Positions 3,482 through 60,977 of a stretch of 64,000 bases of DNA are shown one piece after another; position 1 is the stretch's first letter; each line of letters begins with the position of its first letter. Origin of the DNA: Lucinisca nassula (lineage: Eukaryota; Mollusca; Bivalvia; Lucinida; Lucinidae); NCBI GenBank assembly GCA_963580285.1, contig OY757010.1, positions 219,809,234 through 219,873,233 on the forward strand. The letters run 5' to 3'. Position numbers and translations under genes: made by a program. The notes under the pieces were generated by a model. It worked only from the letters and a program-made list of their open reading frames with translations. It did not search any database and was not told the DNA's origin.

Positions 3482-3605
3482 TTGACGCCAAAAAGATGGG
3501 AAACTATTGAAAACGTAAATGTTTGAAGACAAATAAACGGAATTGGAATAAAAATCAAATATGAGTTCCTTTAAGAACAATGAAAACATTCATAAGAAAG
3601 AAGAT

Positions 3606-3651
3606 GGTTCATACTACGTAGTTTCGGCTAATAAAGCCTCATCAGTGACCC
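3606..3651 (-). ncRNA. Type I hammerhead ribozyme, unit 1
   Basis: On the minus strand: stem I 5' strand GGGUCA, core CUGAUGA, stem II GGCU/AGCC (4 bp) closed by loop UUAUU, core GAA-A, a short stem III from the palindrome CUACGUAG (A-U, C-G, U-A with ACGU loop), then UA as the cleavage dinucleotide and stem I 3' strand UGAACC. All invariant core residues are present. The cut is predicted between plus positions 3612 and 3611. Stem I has one G/A mismatch here. The very short stem III is typical of metazoan retrozymes, which often cleave as dimers. Confidence 0.9.
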
Positions 3652-3988
3652 TGTAATGATCCGACAACGAAAGCCAGAGGAAACATACTGCAATTTCGCG
3701 AATTTCGAATAGGCAGTCGATTCAAAGACTGATATAAATCAAAATGGAGTCCAAACAACCAAAAACCCGTCCAGAATATGAGTCTAAACCAATAATTTAT
3801 TTCAGATTTCTTAGAATATTCACGCTGATCTCAAAGGACCAAAAGTAAAATATAAACTGCACTATGGTTGATGTACGGGGAGACGTTTTACGGCCGCCAC
3901 ACGGCACAACACCAGCTGCAGTGAAGGCAAATAAAAATTAAATATGAGTTCCTTTAAGAACAATGAAAACATTCATAAGAAAGAAGAT

Positions 3989-4034
3989 GGGTCATACTAC
4001 GTAGTTTCGGCTAATAAAGCCTCATCAGTGACCC
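3989..4034 (-). ncRNA. Type I hammerhead ribozyme, unit 2
   Basis: Same core as unit 1, but the stem I 3' strand reads UGACCC, which pairs perfectly with GGGUCA to give 6 uninterrupted base pairs. This unit is therefore the best-folded of the four and probably nearest the ancestral ribozyme. Predicted cut between plus positions 3995 and 3994. Confidence 0.92.
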
Positions 4035-4371
4035 TGTAATGATCCGACAACGAAAGCCAGAGGAAACATACTGCAATTTTGCGAATTTCGAATAGGCAGT
4101 CGATTCAAAGACTGATATAAATCAAAATGGAGTCCAAACAACCAAAAACCCGTCCAGAATATGAGTCTAAACCAATAATTTATTTCAGATTTCTTAGAAT
4201 ATTCACGCTGATCTCAAAGGACCAAAAGTAAAATATAAACTGCACTATGGTTGATGTACGGGGAGACGTTTTACGGCCGCCACACGGCACAACACCAGCT
4301 GCAGTGAAGGCAAATAAAAATCAAATATGAGTTCCTTTAAGAACAATGAAAACATTCATAAGAAAGAAGAT

Positions 4372-4417
4372 GGTTCATACTACGTAGTTTCGGCTAATAA
4401 AGCCTCATCAGTGACCC
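4372..4417 (-). ncRNA. Type I hammerhead ribozyme, unit 3
   Basis: Identical to unit 1 over the 46-nt core, including the G/A mismatch in stem I. Predicted cut between plus positions 4378 and 4377. The unit differs from its neighbours at a few positions outside the ribozyme. Confidence 0.9.
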
Positions 4418-4754
4418 TGTAATGATCCGACAACGAAAGCCAGAGGAAACATACTGCAATTTTGCGAATTTCGAATAGGCAGTCGATTCAAAGACTGATA
4501 TAAATCAAAATGGAGTCCAAACAACTAAAAACCCGTCCAGAATATGAGTCTAAACCAATAATTTATTTAAGATTTCTTAGAATATTCACGCTGATCTCAA
4601 AGGACCAAAAGTAAAATATAAACTGCACTATGGTTGATGTACGGGGAGACGTTTTACGGCCGCCACACGGCACAACACCAGCTGCAGTGAAGGCAAATAA
4701 AAATCAAATATGAGTTCCTTTAAGAACAATGAAAACATTCATAAGAAAGAAGAT

Positions 4755-4800
4755 GGTTCATACTACGTAGTTTCGGCTAATAAAGCCTCATCAGTGACCC
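4755..4800 (-). ncRNA. Type I hammerhead ribozyme, unit 4
   Basis: Identical to unit 1 over the core. Predicted cut between plus positions 4761 and 4760. The array ends about 280 bp further on at 5078. Confidence 0.9.
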
Positions 4801-5078
4801 TGTAATGATCCGACAACGAAAGCCAGAGGAAACATACTGCAATTTCGCGAATTTCGAATAGGCAGTCGATTCAAAGACTGATATAAATCAAAATGGAGTC
4901 CAAACAACCAAAAACCCGTCCAGAATATGAGTCTAAACCAATAATTTATTTCAGATTTCTTAGAATATTCACGCTGATCTCAAAGGACCAAAAGTAAAAT
5001 ATAAACTGCACTATGGTTGATGTACGGGGAGACGTTTTACGGCCGCCACACGGCACAACACCAGCTGCAGTGAAGGCA

Positions 5079-5955
5079 GACTTGGCTTTTCGCTTGGGTT
5101 TCTTTCAAAGATGACAGCTTCTAATTGAAATATCATTCCGCCGTGGCCGTTGGTAAAAGACATTATCTGAAAAATGCCAGTTCTAGAGACATGAGACGCC
5201 TTTTATCACGTCTGCTTTAAACATGGCGCAATAAAGGAGTCCGATTTTCCGTCCGTTCGTTCGTCAAGCCGTCAACATTTGCGACTACCCTAATTTTCAC
5301 CCCAACCTAAGTGTCTTCACAGGCGAGATTTCGGCGATATCCTTGTGTTACATACGGGCGAGTTATCGTAATAAAAGCAAGTTATTAACATTCCAGTAAC
5401 AGCTTTATCTACATGTACTCCTAGAACTATTGTTCTCAGTATTTCAGTACGAGAACACGGGCTGGGGCGGTTTTAACGAGCATCTACAACCAATGTCTGA
5501 AATCATTACAAAATGGCCAATTTAGCAGACATGAAACCAATAGGTATAAAATCAATACAAAAGAAATACAAATTATATCTGATGTATTTGCTGTCCAGTG
5601 TATACCAATATGAGCGCGAGCGCGCGTGGTACTGGCTTATGTGTTTTCATGTCTTGTATTTGTATCATTTCTAACGCCTGCGAGTAGCTTGAAAAATAAC
5701 TGGAAAAATATAATTCTGCTCCGTTCTGACAGAAATAGCCTGGCAGATTAATACCAACATAATGAATTATGGCAGTTATTTCATCGAGAAGTGAATATGA
5801 TCTTCAATTTTAATATCTCAGAGTCTTGACCAGAGGACCATATGCATGGACTTTCTAATAAATGCCAAGTCCTAAATCGCTGTAGCTCAGATGAAACCTT
5901 TGATCTTGGACAGACAGTACAAACCTCGCCAAGCACAAATGCGTCTTCGGACCTG
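5079..5955. other. No gene seen
   Basis: AT-rich single-copy-looking sequence with a short GCGCGAGCGCGCG alternation near 5614. No reading frame, repeat arms or splice-flanked exon could be supported. Confidence 0.4.
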
Positions 5956-8932: not shown

Positions 8933-11900
8933 TTAGTAGTTACGCATTGCAGCGGCTTTCATAAGCACTTCTATGAATAGACAGAGATTTCTCAGGTCAG
9001 AACCATTTTTAGTGTTGAGAAGTTGCTTGAATTTTAGTATATTTGGACGTGAAAAGTAATAGGGTTTTATAAATTTACTCCTTTCCTTGGAAAAGTGAGG
9101 ACAGATGAGCAGATAGTGCATCTCATCACCAACGTCCCGTTTGTTACACAAATGACATTGTCTCTCGCTAGTTTCTACATTTTGCCATCTTAAAACTTCA
9201 CAAGGGAATCTATGATTAGCAGTTCTGAATTTAGCAAGTTGGATATAATATCTTGGCGGAAGTTTTAGTAAATAGTCTTCAAGCTGAATAGATTCCTTGA
9301 ATATTCCGTAATTACGACCTTTAGTAGAGTTATTTAAGCTAGAATTCCATTTCTGTAAGAACTGATCTTTTAATCTTACTGAAACGATTTTTGATATATG
9401 GGAGTTTGGTGTCTGCAGGGCCCAAGTTTCCGACATACCACACTCATCAAGTATTTGTTTGACTTTAAGTACCCATTTACAGTTTAGACTCGGAGTTTCA
9501 GTAAGTTTTTTGTAGAGAATGTAAGACAATTTGGATTGTTTACCGGATAGTAGTCTATTCCAAAAACCGACTATTCTACTCTTAATTACGACTTCTAATG
9601 GGTATCTACCAAATTCCCCAAAAAGCATGTATAACGGAGTACTTTTACGAGAATATGTAAGAGAGCGTAAAAATTGATTCTGAATAACTTCTAACATGTT
9701 GCAGTCTTCGAATCCAAAGATTTCACACCCATGTGTCAGTATAGGGAGAATGGTATTATCAAATAACTTTAGCTGTAAATCAATGGGTAGATCCAGATTC
9801 CCGATTCTTAAATTCAATAAGTACATAGCCTTTTTAGCTTGAGCTGTTACATGTTTCCTGGCGTTCAAAAAACTGCCTGATTTAGAAAAAATGGTTCCGA
9901 GGTATTTATATTTATCTACGATTTCAAGGGTTGAACTTCCGAATTTGAAATTAAAGTGATCAGTTCTTCTTGCTCCAAATATAATAATTTTAGTCTTTGA
10001 TTCATTTACAGTCAATTTCCAGTCCTGACAGTATTTGTAAAACGAGTTCAAGCATGCTTGAAATGATTCAGCATCTTCTGATATTAGAATGGTGTCATCT
10101 GCATACAGCATGACAAAGAGTGTCAAATAGACGGGGAATTCAGTGGAGTCTATGTTAATTGGGACACCATTTATACCGGCATCTATGTGGGCATCACATC
10201 TGAGAAATGTTTCTAGGTCATTGAGATACATTGAGAAAAGAATTGGTGAAATATTATCTCCTTGTCTGAGCCCGCAGTTATTAATAAGAAACCCTGATTC
10301 TTGATTATTTACAGAGATAAATGATTTTGCGTTCAGGTAAATATTATGTAGTACCCTAAGAAAATTTCCATTAATTTCATGACCAAGTAGTTTTCCCCAC
10401 AGTGCAGAACGCCAAACAGAATCAAAAGCCTTTGAAAAGTCTACAAAAGAGCAGAACAACTTTTTCTTTTCAAATTTCATAATTTCAATAAGAGCATATA
10501 GGCTAAAAACGTGATCTGTTGTTGCATATGATTTTCTGAATCCGGCTTGGTTTTCGTTTAACATGTTATTATCCTCTAGGAAATTTGTAAGCCTTTCATT
10601 TAAGACGGCGGTAAATAGTTTATTGAGACAGCTCAATATTGTAATAGGGCGGTAATTGTTGGGATCGGTCACTTCGCCCTTGTTTTTATAGATGGGTCTT
10701 ATTTTACCAATGGCCCAGTCTTCTGGAATAAATCCAGTTTTAAGAATGATATTAAAAAGCGAAACATAGATAGGGGTCATCATATCAGCCGATAATTTGA
10801 TGTACTCATTTAATATGTCGTCGTGCCCCGGTGATTTAGAATTCTTCAGTTTTGAGATACATATCGAAATCTCTTCTGCGGAAAACGGACGGTTTAGAAT
10901 TTCATTAGAGTGTTCGAGATTAAAGTTAACTGGTACGTCATCGTTATTTTGGTCATTGTCAGGGGAGTATACCTCTTTGAAAAAGTCATAAAACATGTCG
11001 ACGGACGGTGTTTCGGTTGTATTTTTAGTTTTTAAAGAGTTGAGAAAATTCCAGTATTTTTTAGGTTCCCTAGCCTGCATTTGGCGCAATACATTTTGTC
11101 GAGAATTCTTATAATTATTAATACACTTATTCAACGTTCGTTTATACGCTTTACTCATTTGTATTAGTGAATGTCGGCTGCGTTCCGTTCGAAGTAGTCT
11201 GTTAGCGCGTTTAGCAAGAAAATACTTTCTGCGGGCCGACTTACATGATGCGCCAAACCAAGGTTTATCCGTTGACCGTTTGACAAAATTAGTTTTTGGC
11301 TTCCGGTTTTCTTTCACTATGTTTGCGCCTTCTCGGAAAAAGTCACAGATCTGTCGAACAATTAAATTAACCGTTTCAGGTGTACACGCACGTTCTGCAT
11401 TGTTGATGAGTGTGTTAATGTCAAGCAGTTTTGACGCGTCTATACTGTTTTTAAAGCATTCATATTCAGTAGGTCTAATTGTTTTAATCGGGCCATCGTG
11501 CTGCTGATAAGAGGGCTGATTCAGTGCAGTATGTACTGTCCGTAAGTCAAGTTTTAGTAAGGCGTGTCCGTCTGAAAACAGGCTATCGACTTCTGTAATT
11601 TTGAAATTTTGTGCAAACTTAATGCCTTGACTAGAGGTTATGACATAATCAATTACCGACAAACCACGGAACGTCATTTCTCCAACATTTTTATCCTCAC
11701 CAAATCTGCCATTCAAGATTGAGAGATTATTATTTTTGCAAAGCTCAATAATTTTAAAACCATGATTGTTCTTTTTAGTATCTTTCGAAGATCTGGAAAT
11801 TTGCAAACCGTACTTTTCCAAAACACCTTTCTGATCCATATGTTCCATTGTAGCCTGATCAAAGTTGAAAAACTCAGACAGAAAGGGGTCAAGGACAGTA

Positions 11901-12484
11901 TAGTCCACCATAGTGGCAGTTTGAGCATTATAATCCCCGAGGAGATACATGTAATCATAATTACTTCGCACTGAAGCTATTTCCTGCTCGAACAGATCGA
12001 ATTCGTCCTCATTAAAGAACCTTGATTGCTGGGGTGGGATATACACTGTCGCAATCATCATATCCTGATCGGTGCCAAGATACTGTTTTGAGATCTTGAG
12101 CCATGCGATATACTCTGATTTAGACTCTACTGCAGATACAAACTTAGCTATACAGTTTCGAACGAAAAAACCCGTACCTCCGGATCTTCGGTAGGATTTT
12201 TGCTTCCTCGGGTGACTGAAAAATGTAAAATCTTGGCAGGAAATAACGTCCGTGTCTAGCAATTTTGTCTCCGAGAGACAGAGGATATCAAAGCTTTGTA
12301 TCAAGTCTATGAAATCAGGATACAGAATTTTTCGTTTCAGCCCACATACGTTGAGGCTACCAATTGATATTATAGGATATTGAATAGTGTTATTAGGGTT
12401 AAACTTATGACTGAATGTAGGTTGGGGCTGGTTTATATTCTTATTGTGATTTTCATAACGATTGTCAATGTTTTTGATGTTCAC
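8933..12484 (-). CDS. LINE ORF2: APE endonuclease plus reverse transcriptase, intact frame
   Basis: 1183 codons without a stop. N-terminal endonuclease: SLNVCGLKRK (43-52), LSETK with the catalytic Glu (70-74), LLGDYNAQ (181-188), VIDYVITS (277-284), SDGHALL (304-310). Reverse transcriptase: SKSPGHDDILNEYIKL (549-564), NYRPITILSCLNKLF (610-624), VDFSKAFDSVW with a catalytic Asp (681-691), GLRQGDNISPILF (738-750), and YADD catalytic pair (794-797). A C-terminal Cys/His cluster, CHLC...H....C, lies near residues 1110-1128. Length and order fit a complete APE-class LINE ORF2; the clade is not determined. The first codon is GTG, and the frame continues upstream across one TAG (see the next entry), so the true start is uncertain. 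It could be active or recently active. Confidence 0.93.
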   Translation of the reverse strand: MNIKNIDNRYENHNKNINQPQPTFSHKFNPNNTIQYPIISIGSLNVCGLKRKILYPDFIDLIQSFDILCLSETKLLDTDVISCQDFTFFSHPRKQKSYRRSGGTGFFVRNCIAKFVSAVESKSEYIAWLKISKQYLGTDQDMMIATVYIPPQQSRFFNEDEFDLFEQEIASVRSNYDYMYLLGDYNAQTATMVDYTVLDPFLSEFFNFDQATMEHMDQKGVLEKYGLQISRSSKDTKKNNHGFKIIELCKNNNLSILNGRFGEDKNVGEMTFRGLSVIDYVITSSQGIKFAQNFKITEVDSLFSDGHALLKLDLRTVHTALNQPSYQQHDGPIKTIRPTEYECFKNSIDASKLLDINTLINNAERACTPETVNLIVRQICDFFREGANIVKENRKPKTNFVKRSTDKPWFGASCKSARRKYFLAKRANRLLRTERSRHSLIQMSKAYKRTLNKCINNYKNSRQNVLRQMQAREPKKYWNFLNSLKTKNTTETPSVDMFYDFFKEVYSPDNDQNNDDVPVNFNLEHSNEILNRPFSAEEISICISKLKNSKSPGHDDILNEYIKLSADMMTPIYVSLFNIILKTGFIPEDWAIGKIRPIYKNKGEVTDPNNYRPITILSCLNKLFTAVLNERLTNFLEDNNMLNENQAGFRKSYATTDHVFSLYALIEIMKFEKKKLFCSFVDFSKAFDSVWRSALWGKLLGHEINGNFLRVLHNIYLNAKSFISVNNQESGFLINNCGLRQGDNISPILFSMYLNDLETFLRCDAHIDAGINGVPINIDSTEFPVYLTLFVMLYADDTILISEDAESFQACLNSFYKYCQDWKLTVNESKTKIIIFGARRTDHFNFKFGSSTLEIVDKYKYLGTIFSKSGSFLNARKHVTAQAKKAMYLLNLRIGNLDLPIDLQLKLFDNTILPILTHGCEIFGFEDCNMLEVIQNQFLRSLTYSRKSTPLYMLFGEFGRYPLEVVIKSRIVGFWNRLLSGKQSKLSYILYKKLTETPSLNCKWVLKVKQILDECGMSETWALQTPNSHISKIVSVRLKDQFLQKWNSSLNNSTKGRNYGIFKESIQLEDYLLKLPPRYYIQLAKFRTANHRFPCEVLRWQNVETSERQCHLCNKRDVGDEMHYLLICPHFSKERSKFIKPYYFSRPNILKFKQLLNTKNGSDLRNLCLFIEVLMKAAAMRNY

Positions 12485-15110: not shown

Positions 15111-16005
15111 TACTGGGCAAATGCTTTGGGTCACGTTGATTTCCATTTAGAAAGGTTTGTATAGAAGAATACCTTTGTTCCCTTTTTGTACGTATAAAAT
15201 TTTCCGACAAAGTGTGGGTGTTGCTAAGGCAGCGCATCGAATAAAAATATTAGTACCTACGAGCCCATAAACTTTTTTCTGGCTGTTGAATTTATGATAT
15301 TAGTTTTATATTTCCCCTCCATTATGTGTGCGTTTTCTTGCCTGCAATAAAGCTGTCAGCAATTTTGACATATAACACTTGTATGAAAGACCCCTGGAAG
15401 CTTTTTAAAAAGAAATCGGATACTTTTCGCGATCTGAAACAATTTACTACTTGCTTTTACAACTCAAAAATGAGTAACAGGTTCGATATTTGGACTGAGT
15501 GCTACATAATGCGTTTCCGCATGTAGGCAAGGCTAAGTGGCTTTTTTAAAGCTACAAATAAGCTGTTGTTTGTGCGAACAGTGACGACCTATACCAGCCA
15601 CAGTGCAGCTGGTGTTTTTTGTATTGTGTGGTGGGAGTAGAATGTGTCCCCGCACTTTATCACAGCGTAGCGCACGACAAAACCTTTGATAAGACATGTG
15701 CGACCGCGCAAGCTAATCATAGTCTTCCTCTTTCGCATGTTCCTTCACAAGCCTCTGAAGATCAATGACTCTGGTCCCGAGTAGGATGACACGAAGGTGG
15801 AGGTGGGTCTTGCCGTTGAAAAGGTATTCTTGTAGGTAATATCGTGTCCGACTAAAGAGCAATTATGATTAAGCACACTGAAAGAAAGGTCATTTTATTG
15901 AAAACCTCAAGAAAAAAAAAAAATAAATAAAAAAAAAATAAACCCGTTTGTTCGCAAGATATGCTAATTTTTCGCTGATACATACCTATTTTCCTCTAAA
16001 TCCCT
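15111..16005. other. No gene seen
   Basis: Ordinary AT-rich sequence with an A-rich stretch near 15910-15945. The segment 15601-15653 shows weak similarity to one end of the hammerhead unit (see findings). Confidence 0.4.
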
Positions 16006-35295: not shown

Positions 35296-35624
35296 TTTGT
35301 GTTATTCAAGATCGAAGGAAAACCCCGTTTAATCATCCCCGTTATGCATCCAGACTTGGGGCTGTTATCAATTGTCCATCTCGAACAAATGACTATGTTC
35401 CCAAAAGTGCCGGACTCGGTAGCTCAGTCGGATGCGCGTTTGACTGGTGATCAGGTGGACGCGGGTTCGATACCTGCCCGGGTCGGCAACATTCTTTCGT
35501 GGAGATTGATCATGAAATCTTTTCTACGGTCAGTCTCTCCCTTCCGCTGATTCAAGAAGGGCAGTTGTCAGTTTCTGGCGAAAGATTGTGCACTGTACTG
35601 GTTAACCGCTTACGTATAAGCCTG

Positions 35625-60667: not shown

Positions 60668-60977
60668 TAGCCGGCCTCGCTAGCTTAGTCGGATGCGCGT
60701 CTGACTGGCAATCAGGAGGACGCGGGTTCGATTCCTGCCGTGGTCGGCAACATTCTTTCGTGGAGGTTGATCATGAAATCTTTTCTACCGTCATTCTCTC
60801 CATTCCGCTGATTCAAGAAGGGCAGTTGTCAGTTTCTGGTGAGAGAATGTGCCCTGTACTCGTTAACCGCTTACGTATAAGACTGCCCAGGAAAAGTGTG
60901 GATAGGTAAACTGACCGGCTCAAAAATGACCTAAAATGACTGAGCCGTTAAACTCCAATACAAACAAACAAAAACAA
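60668..60977 (+). mobile_element. S2 SINE, full length, intact
   Basis: tRNA-like head (CGCTAGCTTAGTCGGATGCG, CGCGGGTTCGATTCCTGCC), uninterrupted body, tail CCGTTAAACTCCAATAC plus CAAACAAAC. Perfect 13-bp target duplication acaatattcagtt at 60655-60667 and 60978-60990. Reference copy for S2. Confidence 0.96.

Follow-up and report, generated by a model that had tools for sequence, protein, structure and literature searches.

The window, by which is meant the whole stretch of 64,000 nt of Lucinisca nassula DNA analysed here, carries a tandem array of four 383-bp units in a plain head-to-tail layout, each with a hammerhead ribozyme (HHR) on the minus strand. Tandem Repeats Finder reported a period of 383 bp, 4.0 copies, 99% matches and 0% indels at nt 3547–5078, confirming the four exact units claimed in the first-pass annotation. 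Five of the 383 positions vary among the units. The outer two units are identical, and the GC content of the four is 0.376–0.384. The features of the locus are as follows.

3547–5078, minus strand: putative retrozyme array, 4.0 units x 383 bp (Tandem Repeats Finder, unit comparison)
4696–5078, minus strand: array unit 1 in RNA sense (unit comparison)
4755–4800, minus strand: hammerhead with stem I arms, predicted cut 4761/4760 (descriptor)
4313–4695, minus strand: array unit 2 in RNA sense (unit comparison)
4372–4417, minus strand: hammerhead with stem I arms, predicted cut 4378/4377 (descriptor)
3930–4312, minus strand: array unit 3 in RNA sense, the sole unit with a 6-bp stem I (unit comparison, descriptor, fold)
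3989–4034, minus strand: hammerhead with intact 6-bp stem I, predicted cut 3995/3994 (descriptor)
3547–3929, minus strand: array unit 4, the last in RNA sense (unit comparison)
3606–3651, minus strand: hammerhead with stem I arms, predicted cut 3612/3611 (descriptor)
3540–3546, no strand: GAATTGG, adjoining the array 3' end in hammerhead sense (flank comparison)
5079–5085, no strand: GACTTGG, adjoining the array 5' end in hammerhead sense (flank comparison)
3524–3537, minus strand: target DNA like the unit junction at 13/14 bases (11 of 5000 random 40-mers equally good)

The two 7-bp flanks agree at 6/7 bases, as well as 668 of 200,000 random pairs, and form a possible target duplication. No open reading frame of at least 120 aa lies in the array, and the 383-bp unit holds no frame of that length with reverse transcriptase plus GIY-YIG, the combination looked for in a Penelope-like element (PLE). 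Elsewhere in the window, nt 15597–15942 is about 73% like the unit start and is followed by an A-rich stretch at 15913–15942; the likeness of nt 15597–15655 to the unit is borderline (BLAST E 0.012; 5/100 shuffled queries equally good). Rfam also scored two tRNAs above the gathering threshold (nt 35413–35485 and 60674–60745), which are either genes or tRNA-derived repeats.

On the minus strand each unit reads CTGATGA, a stem II of GGCU/AGCC with a UUAUU loop, GAAA, the palindrome CUACGUAG and the dinucleotide UA, and stem III comprises two pairs (CU/AG) around a palindromic tetraloop. The 34-nt cores lie at nt 4794–4761, 4411–4378, 4028–3995 and 3645–3612. A structural descriptor of stems II, III and I found four sites on the two strands of the window, all of them in array units, and none in 60 random windows of equal base-step composition, which bears out the earlier claim of a complete type I core in all four units. 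The stem I of up to 6 bp that had also been claimed is found in unit 3930–4312 alone; the other three depart from the family consensus, with a G.A mismatch between 3 bp and 2 bp of pairing. An outer pairing of stem I (GGAU/AUCU) appears possible by eye. The hammerhead-constrained fold of unit 3930–4312 has an energy of -13.2 kcal/mol against a minimum of -14.0, while in the mismatched three units the values are -6.5 and -11.7. The hammerhead region folded alone gave a z-score of -0.20, and the hammerhead fold was not preferred. As a circle, the unit folds at -88.8 kcal/mol, compared with -77.2 in shuffles, 4/100 of which were as low.

The covariance-model check with Rfam Hammerhead_1, proposed in the first-pass annotation, returned no match in a listing that shows only the best member of each clan, and no family reached its gathering score over the array. 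Under relaxed limits the array matched the type III model, RF00008, at 31.3 bits (E 3.2e-4; gathering score 48.5), and a shorter stretch also matched the RAGATH-1 hammerhead (19.2 bits, E 0.12). If this best Rfam match were taken at face value, the ribozyme would be of type III and would cut after an upstream GUC. Such a reading requires the GUC; it is present, however, in 20/91 sampled units, the middle position being C in the other 71. Moreover, 2517 of 20,000 shuffled upstream sequences equalled the real one by a crude score, and the best site of the real sequence was a different one. Type III was therefore rejected as extremely improbable, given a GUC that is not kept across the family and the type I anatomy found by the descriptor.

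The exact 34-nt core occurs 19,846 times (9889 + 9957) in the 2.93 Gb host assembly, and a reversed-pattern control 0 times. With one unit as query, 2122 candidate places were returned, of which 40 were scored. The first 100 cores in coordinate order fall into 77 loci, 62 of them with a single intact core, and 18 of the 23 spacings between neighbours equal 383. A relaxed pattern found 96 cores in 39 fetched loci (including a duplicate, L035, a copy of L034); 72 have the exact core and 81 the stem I pairing GGGUCA/UGACCC. An alignment of 17 distinct rows gave a hammerhead covariation score of 0.135 against 0.087 when shuffled (1/500), slid versions scoring 0.001–0.027, and six cells with two-sided change against 1.7 (1/500), counts that are inflated by the relatedness of the rows; the number of pairs with two-sided change was not above shuffles (2 vs 1.4, 213/500). 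Units differ by a median of 6 positions within arrays and 12 between arrays (0/2000 permutations). The exceptions are L016, L039 and L048, which are mixed inside; this suits either a multimer template or age. The exact hammerhead and module patterns had no match in a viral contig collection. The relaxed hammerhead pattern had one match in a genomic contig collection (L001, a Bacteroidales MAG).

Two further families were distinguished beside family 1. Family 2, found in L010 and L018 (minus strand) and in L027 and L040 (plus strand), has an altered stem II, a stem III that is also altered but remains a palindrome (CUAGCUAG), and UC at the predicted cut, and its tandem junction was seen in L010 only. 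Family 3 was sought with a divergent unit of L028 (nt 3641–4200), which gave 4718 candidate places, 40 of them scored; its other loci are L049–L054 and L095–L118. The units in L049 are 279 bp long, stand in tandem, and share the module and tail of the retrozyme. CTGANGA is absent from the units of six family-3 loci, the single match in L049 lying in the flank. At the place of the hammerhead there is a cassette predicted to form a closed, multi-branched fold, a prediction made without a shuffle control. The Rfam listings for the family-3 units of L028, L049 and L051 contained no ribozyme at E limits of 5 and 10, and of pistol, hairpin, twister and HDV-like readings of the cassette we take none to fit. 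A common 3' flank beginning TAAGGAGTCAC adjoins 12 of 30 family-3 loci (L050, L095, L096, L100, L103–L105, L108, L112, L115, L116 and L118); judging by this sequence, these loci are probably carried inside another repeat.

The arrays end at a fixed position on one side and begin at scattered positions on the other. Among 41 listed arrays (42 rows less the duplicate L035, with the window array included), the 3' end falls at unit position 383 in 39 and at 381 in two. The list omits, among others, fragments in L042 and a second L033 array whose end is at unit position 209. The listing filter (last unit match reaching position 375, identity >91%) favours a fixed end, and for this reason 40 loci in coordinate order were also taken, by core alone, as a fairer test. 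Four of these continue into a next unit. The remaining 36 comprise 35 whose end lies, by eye, about 2 nt or less from position 383, and one, L093, that stops about 10 nt short of it. The fixed 3' end lies 65 nt beyond the predicted ribozyme cut. The 5' starts are scattered, giving lengths of 0.70–5.27 units. No poly-A was seen at the array joins, and most arrays have no target duplication next to them; the flanks of L039 show a 13/13 duplicate, but inside a simple repeat. Unit position 1 is the exact start of three of the 41 arrays (window, 4.0 units; L038, 1.0; L040, 2.0), where about 0.11 would be expected from uniform starts; L021 and L041 were called as such starts too, but their upstream flanks end in unit-like sequence. 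Our guess is that in these cases copying halts at the enzyme's own start point on the circle. Three family-1 loci (L048, L080 and L082) have a common 3' flank, TGTAGTTCCTGAGAAAT, which reflects either repeated insertion in a repeat or co-amplification. The family-1 array of L089 ends within sequence resembling a decayed family-2 hammerhead.

Past the 3' end the RNA would continue with UGC in family 1 and UAU in family 3, and the flanking DNA was compared with these bases. For family 1, 28 of the 40 coordinate-order loci passed the strict pattern, four being internal and eight set aside, and 65/67 flanks were distinct. The 30 family-3 loci yielded 17 distinct flanks, 12 sharing one flank, two another, and one being internal. 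At base +2 the family-1 flanks have A in 27, G in 28, T in 5 and C in 5, and those of family 3 A in 15, T in 1, C in 1 and G in 0 (G in 28/65 vs 0/17, p 0.0004). The flank TAT occurs in 6/65 and 10/17 (p 4e-5), and TGC in 10/65 and 0/17, respectively. The observed match to the continuation of the own family was reached by 0/20,000 shufflings of the family labels. Most of this label-specific signal comes from family 3, whose flanks (n = 17) match their own continuation at a mean of 2.18 bases and that of family 1 at 0.71; the family-1 means, 1.11 for its own and 1.02 for that of family 3, are hardly apart. G.U pairing would explain both A and G at +2 in family 1, and a T-purine preference of the nuclease may account for part of the flank pattern. 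The TAT of family 3 may be part of a slightly longer fixed end. Whichever way it is assigned, the template ran beyond the UUAUU end, as would a circle or a multimer.

The fixed end lies within a conserved domain of about 130 nt, made up of a unit's tail and the ~103 nt that open the following unit, which is predicted to adopt one fold in families 1–3. The window holds three copies.

4593–4726, minus strand: proposed reverse-transcription start domain, across the unit junction (alignment A2; putative function)
4210–4343, minus strand: proposed start domain, copy 2 (alignment A2; putative function)
3827–3960, minus strand: proposed start domain, copy 3 (alignment A2; putative function)

Alignment A2 comprises 13 rows chosen from 62 listed, with family 2 represented by one row, and its consensus fold has 34 predicted pairs, 6 of them with two-sided change. 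The outer helix of 10 bp, which brackets the array 3'-end site, is 98.5% paired across the 13 rows and three families, with UA replaced by CG in five rows. Its covariation score is 0.195 against 0.151 when shuffled (0/500) and 0.122 when slid by +1; pairs with two-sided change in this helix were not above shuffles (1 vs 0.6, 280/500). Single-sequence folds of the domain are more stable than shuffles (z -2.39 in family 1 and -3.33 in family 3). Propagated variants in family 1 affect 3/104 sites of the first 104 nt and 33/174 sites of the body (p 6e-5). In the hammerhead they affect 3/46 sites, much as in the rest (p 0.33), and none of the 13 core sites.

The size, layout, GC content, hammerhead type and copy number of the array match those of published metazoan non-LTR retrozymes, and it is on this account that the array is assigned to them, in agreement with the interpretation first given; the retroposition-like ends of the genome copies lend it further support. 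Taken together, the data suggest that the element is probably such a retrozyme in a bivalve genome, and that its reverse transcription starts internally on circular or multimeric RNA. The hammerhead core with its covariation, the fixed 3' end and scattered 5' starts, the family-dependent junction bases and the conserved junction helix can be read from the DNA itself, and they are consistent with a route of which we infer the cleavage, the circularisation, the identity of the enzyme and the preference for a circle over a multimer. In minus-strand transcripts the type I hammerhead of each unit would fold and cut after UA, giving 383-nt RNAs, which would be ligated into circles as proposed from published retrozymes. 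A retrotransposon reverse transcriptase, for which a PLE is the best candidate, would recognise the ~130-nt domain spanning the junction, nick the target DNA and begin copying inside the domain at UUUUUAUU, aided by pairing of 0–5 nt of the nicked target with the RNA continuing 3' of the start. Copying would then circle the RNA, or follow a multimer, about 1–5 times and halt at scattered points. With a fixed start and scattered stops, insertions would all share their 3' end but differ in where they begin on the 5' side. Counting against this explanation, three of the four window units have a damaged stem I, and the hammerhead fold is not favoured when its region is folded alone. The scarcity of target duplications, the near-equal flank matches of family 1, the counts of pairs with two-sided change and the arrays that are mixed inside also weigh against it.

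Very similar units in head-to-tail arrays could also be satellite DNA, spread by unequal crossing-over or as DNA circles, with the hammerhead as a passenger. Local DNA amplification would likewise be expected to make units more alike within arrays than between them, and some repeats do carry arrays along, as the flank shared by 12/30 family-3 loci indicates. The copies, however, form thousands of scattered short arrays, with one intact core in most of the coordinate-order loci (62/77), and both the single fixed 3' end with scattered 5' starts and the junction bases that vary with the family speak against such an origin, which is very unlikely. Somewhat less improbable, but still disfavoured, are linear RNAs with ends at the unit junction, set by their own transcription start and stop, that are joined by template jumping, the hammerhead being dispensable. 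The excess of arrays starting at position 1 (window, L038 and L040) would fit this, as would the U run in the RNA 3' end UUUUUAUU. Against it, the 3' flank bases tend to continue the unit, family by family, and units of one array resemble each other; a helix links the two sides of the junction, so that the RNA must run through it.

Internal initiation on circular or multimeric RNA leaves the source of the reverse transcriptase to be considered. A fixed 3' end with 5' truncation is usual in LINE-type insertion, and LINE frames lie nearby in the window, one of 1183 aa without stops, so a LINE acting on the same RNA is possible, though we think it doubtful. Arrays here lack poly-A and have few target duplications, with which some LINEs would still be compatible, and internal initiation beyond the hammerhead has been described for a PLE in the available text of PMC11167929. 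We infer that a PLE supplies the enzyme. A search of the host genome for GIY-YIG gave 138 listed matches from 150 scored of 746 candidates, the longest of their open frames reaching 820 aa. Same-strand pairs about 3.8–4.0 kb apart occur among them; those in long open frames paired at about 4 kb (C5:35878300, C5:145336487, C6:63493014 and C6:100216705) are candidate tandem PLEs. Another long GIY-YIG frame lies at C17:120267697. Pieces near several arrays are presumably PLE-like. In one of them (L012) a GIY-YIG match reached 21.3 bits, just below the cut-off of 22.6, and Pfam detected a reverse transcriptase weakly in one of three such pieces.

The 1183-aa LINE frame (nt 8933–12484) matches a protein of a 'Candidatus Thiodiazotropha taylori' MAG contig at 91% identity and 88% query coverage; Thiodiazotropha and Sedimenticola MAGs gave more matches, and the limpet Patella a single one. 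The text available of PMC12485333 associates Thiodiazotropha with lucinid clams, and the matches in symbiont MAGs are probably host contamination.

Families 1–3 share the start domain, and a tentative extension is that this domain, rather than the hammerhead, defines a superfamily of retroelements with circular RNAs and swapped ribozyme cassettes, family 3 using an undescribed self-cleaving motif; we regard this as speculative. If true, the strongly folded cassette of family 3 replaces the hammerhead and feeds the same route back to DNA. The existence of a hammerhead-free sister family raises the question of whether another ribozyme could feed the same pathway. In the available portions of PMC7229834, PMC7761336 and PMC11167929, the route and the enzyme that return animal retrozymes to DNA are given only as a proposal. 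With about 20,000 intact hammerhead cores, a mapped start site, a ~130-nt domain and a family-dependent junction rule, that proposal becomes testable. In listings of open-licence papers we noticed no account of where retrozyme insertion starts, of a start domain of this kind or of the present family. The retrozyme class itself has already been described, and the new leads are the start domain and family 3, with no hammerhead motif in the units read.

The closest known elements are the metazoan non-LTR retrozymes, above all those of the mussel Mytilus galloprovincialis (Cervera and de la Pena 2020, PMC7229834), whose available description includes tandem units of ~350–390 bp that each bear a type I HHR, have a low GC content, are without LTRs and number in the thousands, with hammerheads in the size range of circle-forming monomers, circRNAs, and PLEs as proposed helpers. 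The elements found here likewise have short tandem units (~150–450 bp, from dimers to multimers, in the class), a type I HHR per unit, GC under about 45–50% and dispersed copies; target duplications, if any, are >4 bp in this class. They are likened to the Mytilus retrozymes by description, not by sequence, and the insertion start site and junction domain described here are the points of difference from the account available. The weak palindromic stem III recalls the HHR repeats of newt and axolotl, in which it could pair between two hammerheads, and its form resembles the second axolotl form and that of invertebrate HHRs, as far as these are covered in the same source. Plant LTR retrozymes (PMC7761336, in the part available, where retrozymes seem to be without promoters) are also non-coding tandem repeats with self-cleaving HHRs. 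They differ in having type III HHRs, absent here given the type I anatomy, as well as LTRs, a primer-binding site, a polypurine tract and 4-bp target duplications.

For the insertion process, a close parallel is the PLE PAc of Anolis (PMC11167929). In the text available, the purified enzyme starts reverse transcription internally, downstream of the element's own HHR, the required RNA extends 3' of the start, and one insertion end is constant. The retrozyme encodes no protein, in contrast to PAc, and the PAc start has no homology to the cut DNA, its HHR being dispensable for insertion in vitro; these last two points count against the route proposed here. By this analogy, the insertion ends and flank bases of the Lucinisca elements fit a PLE-like internal start downstream of the hammerhead.
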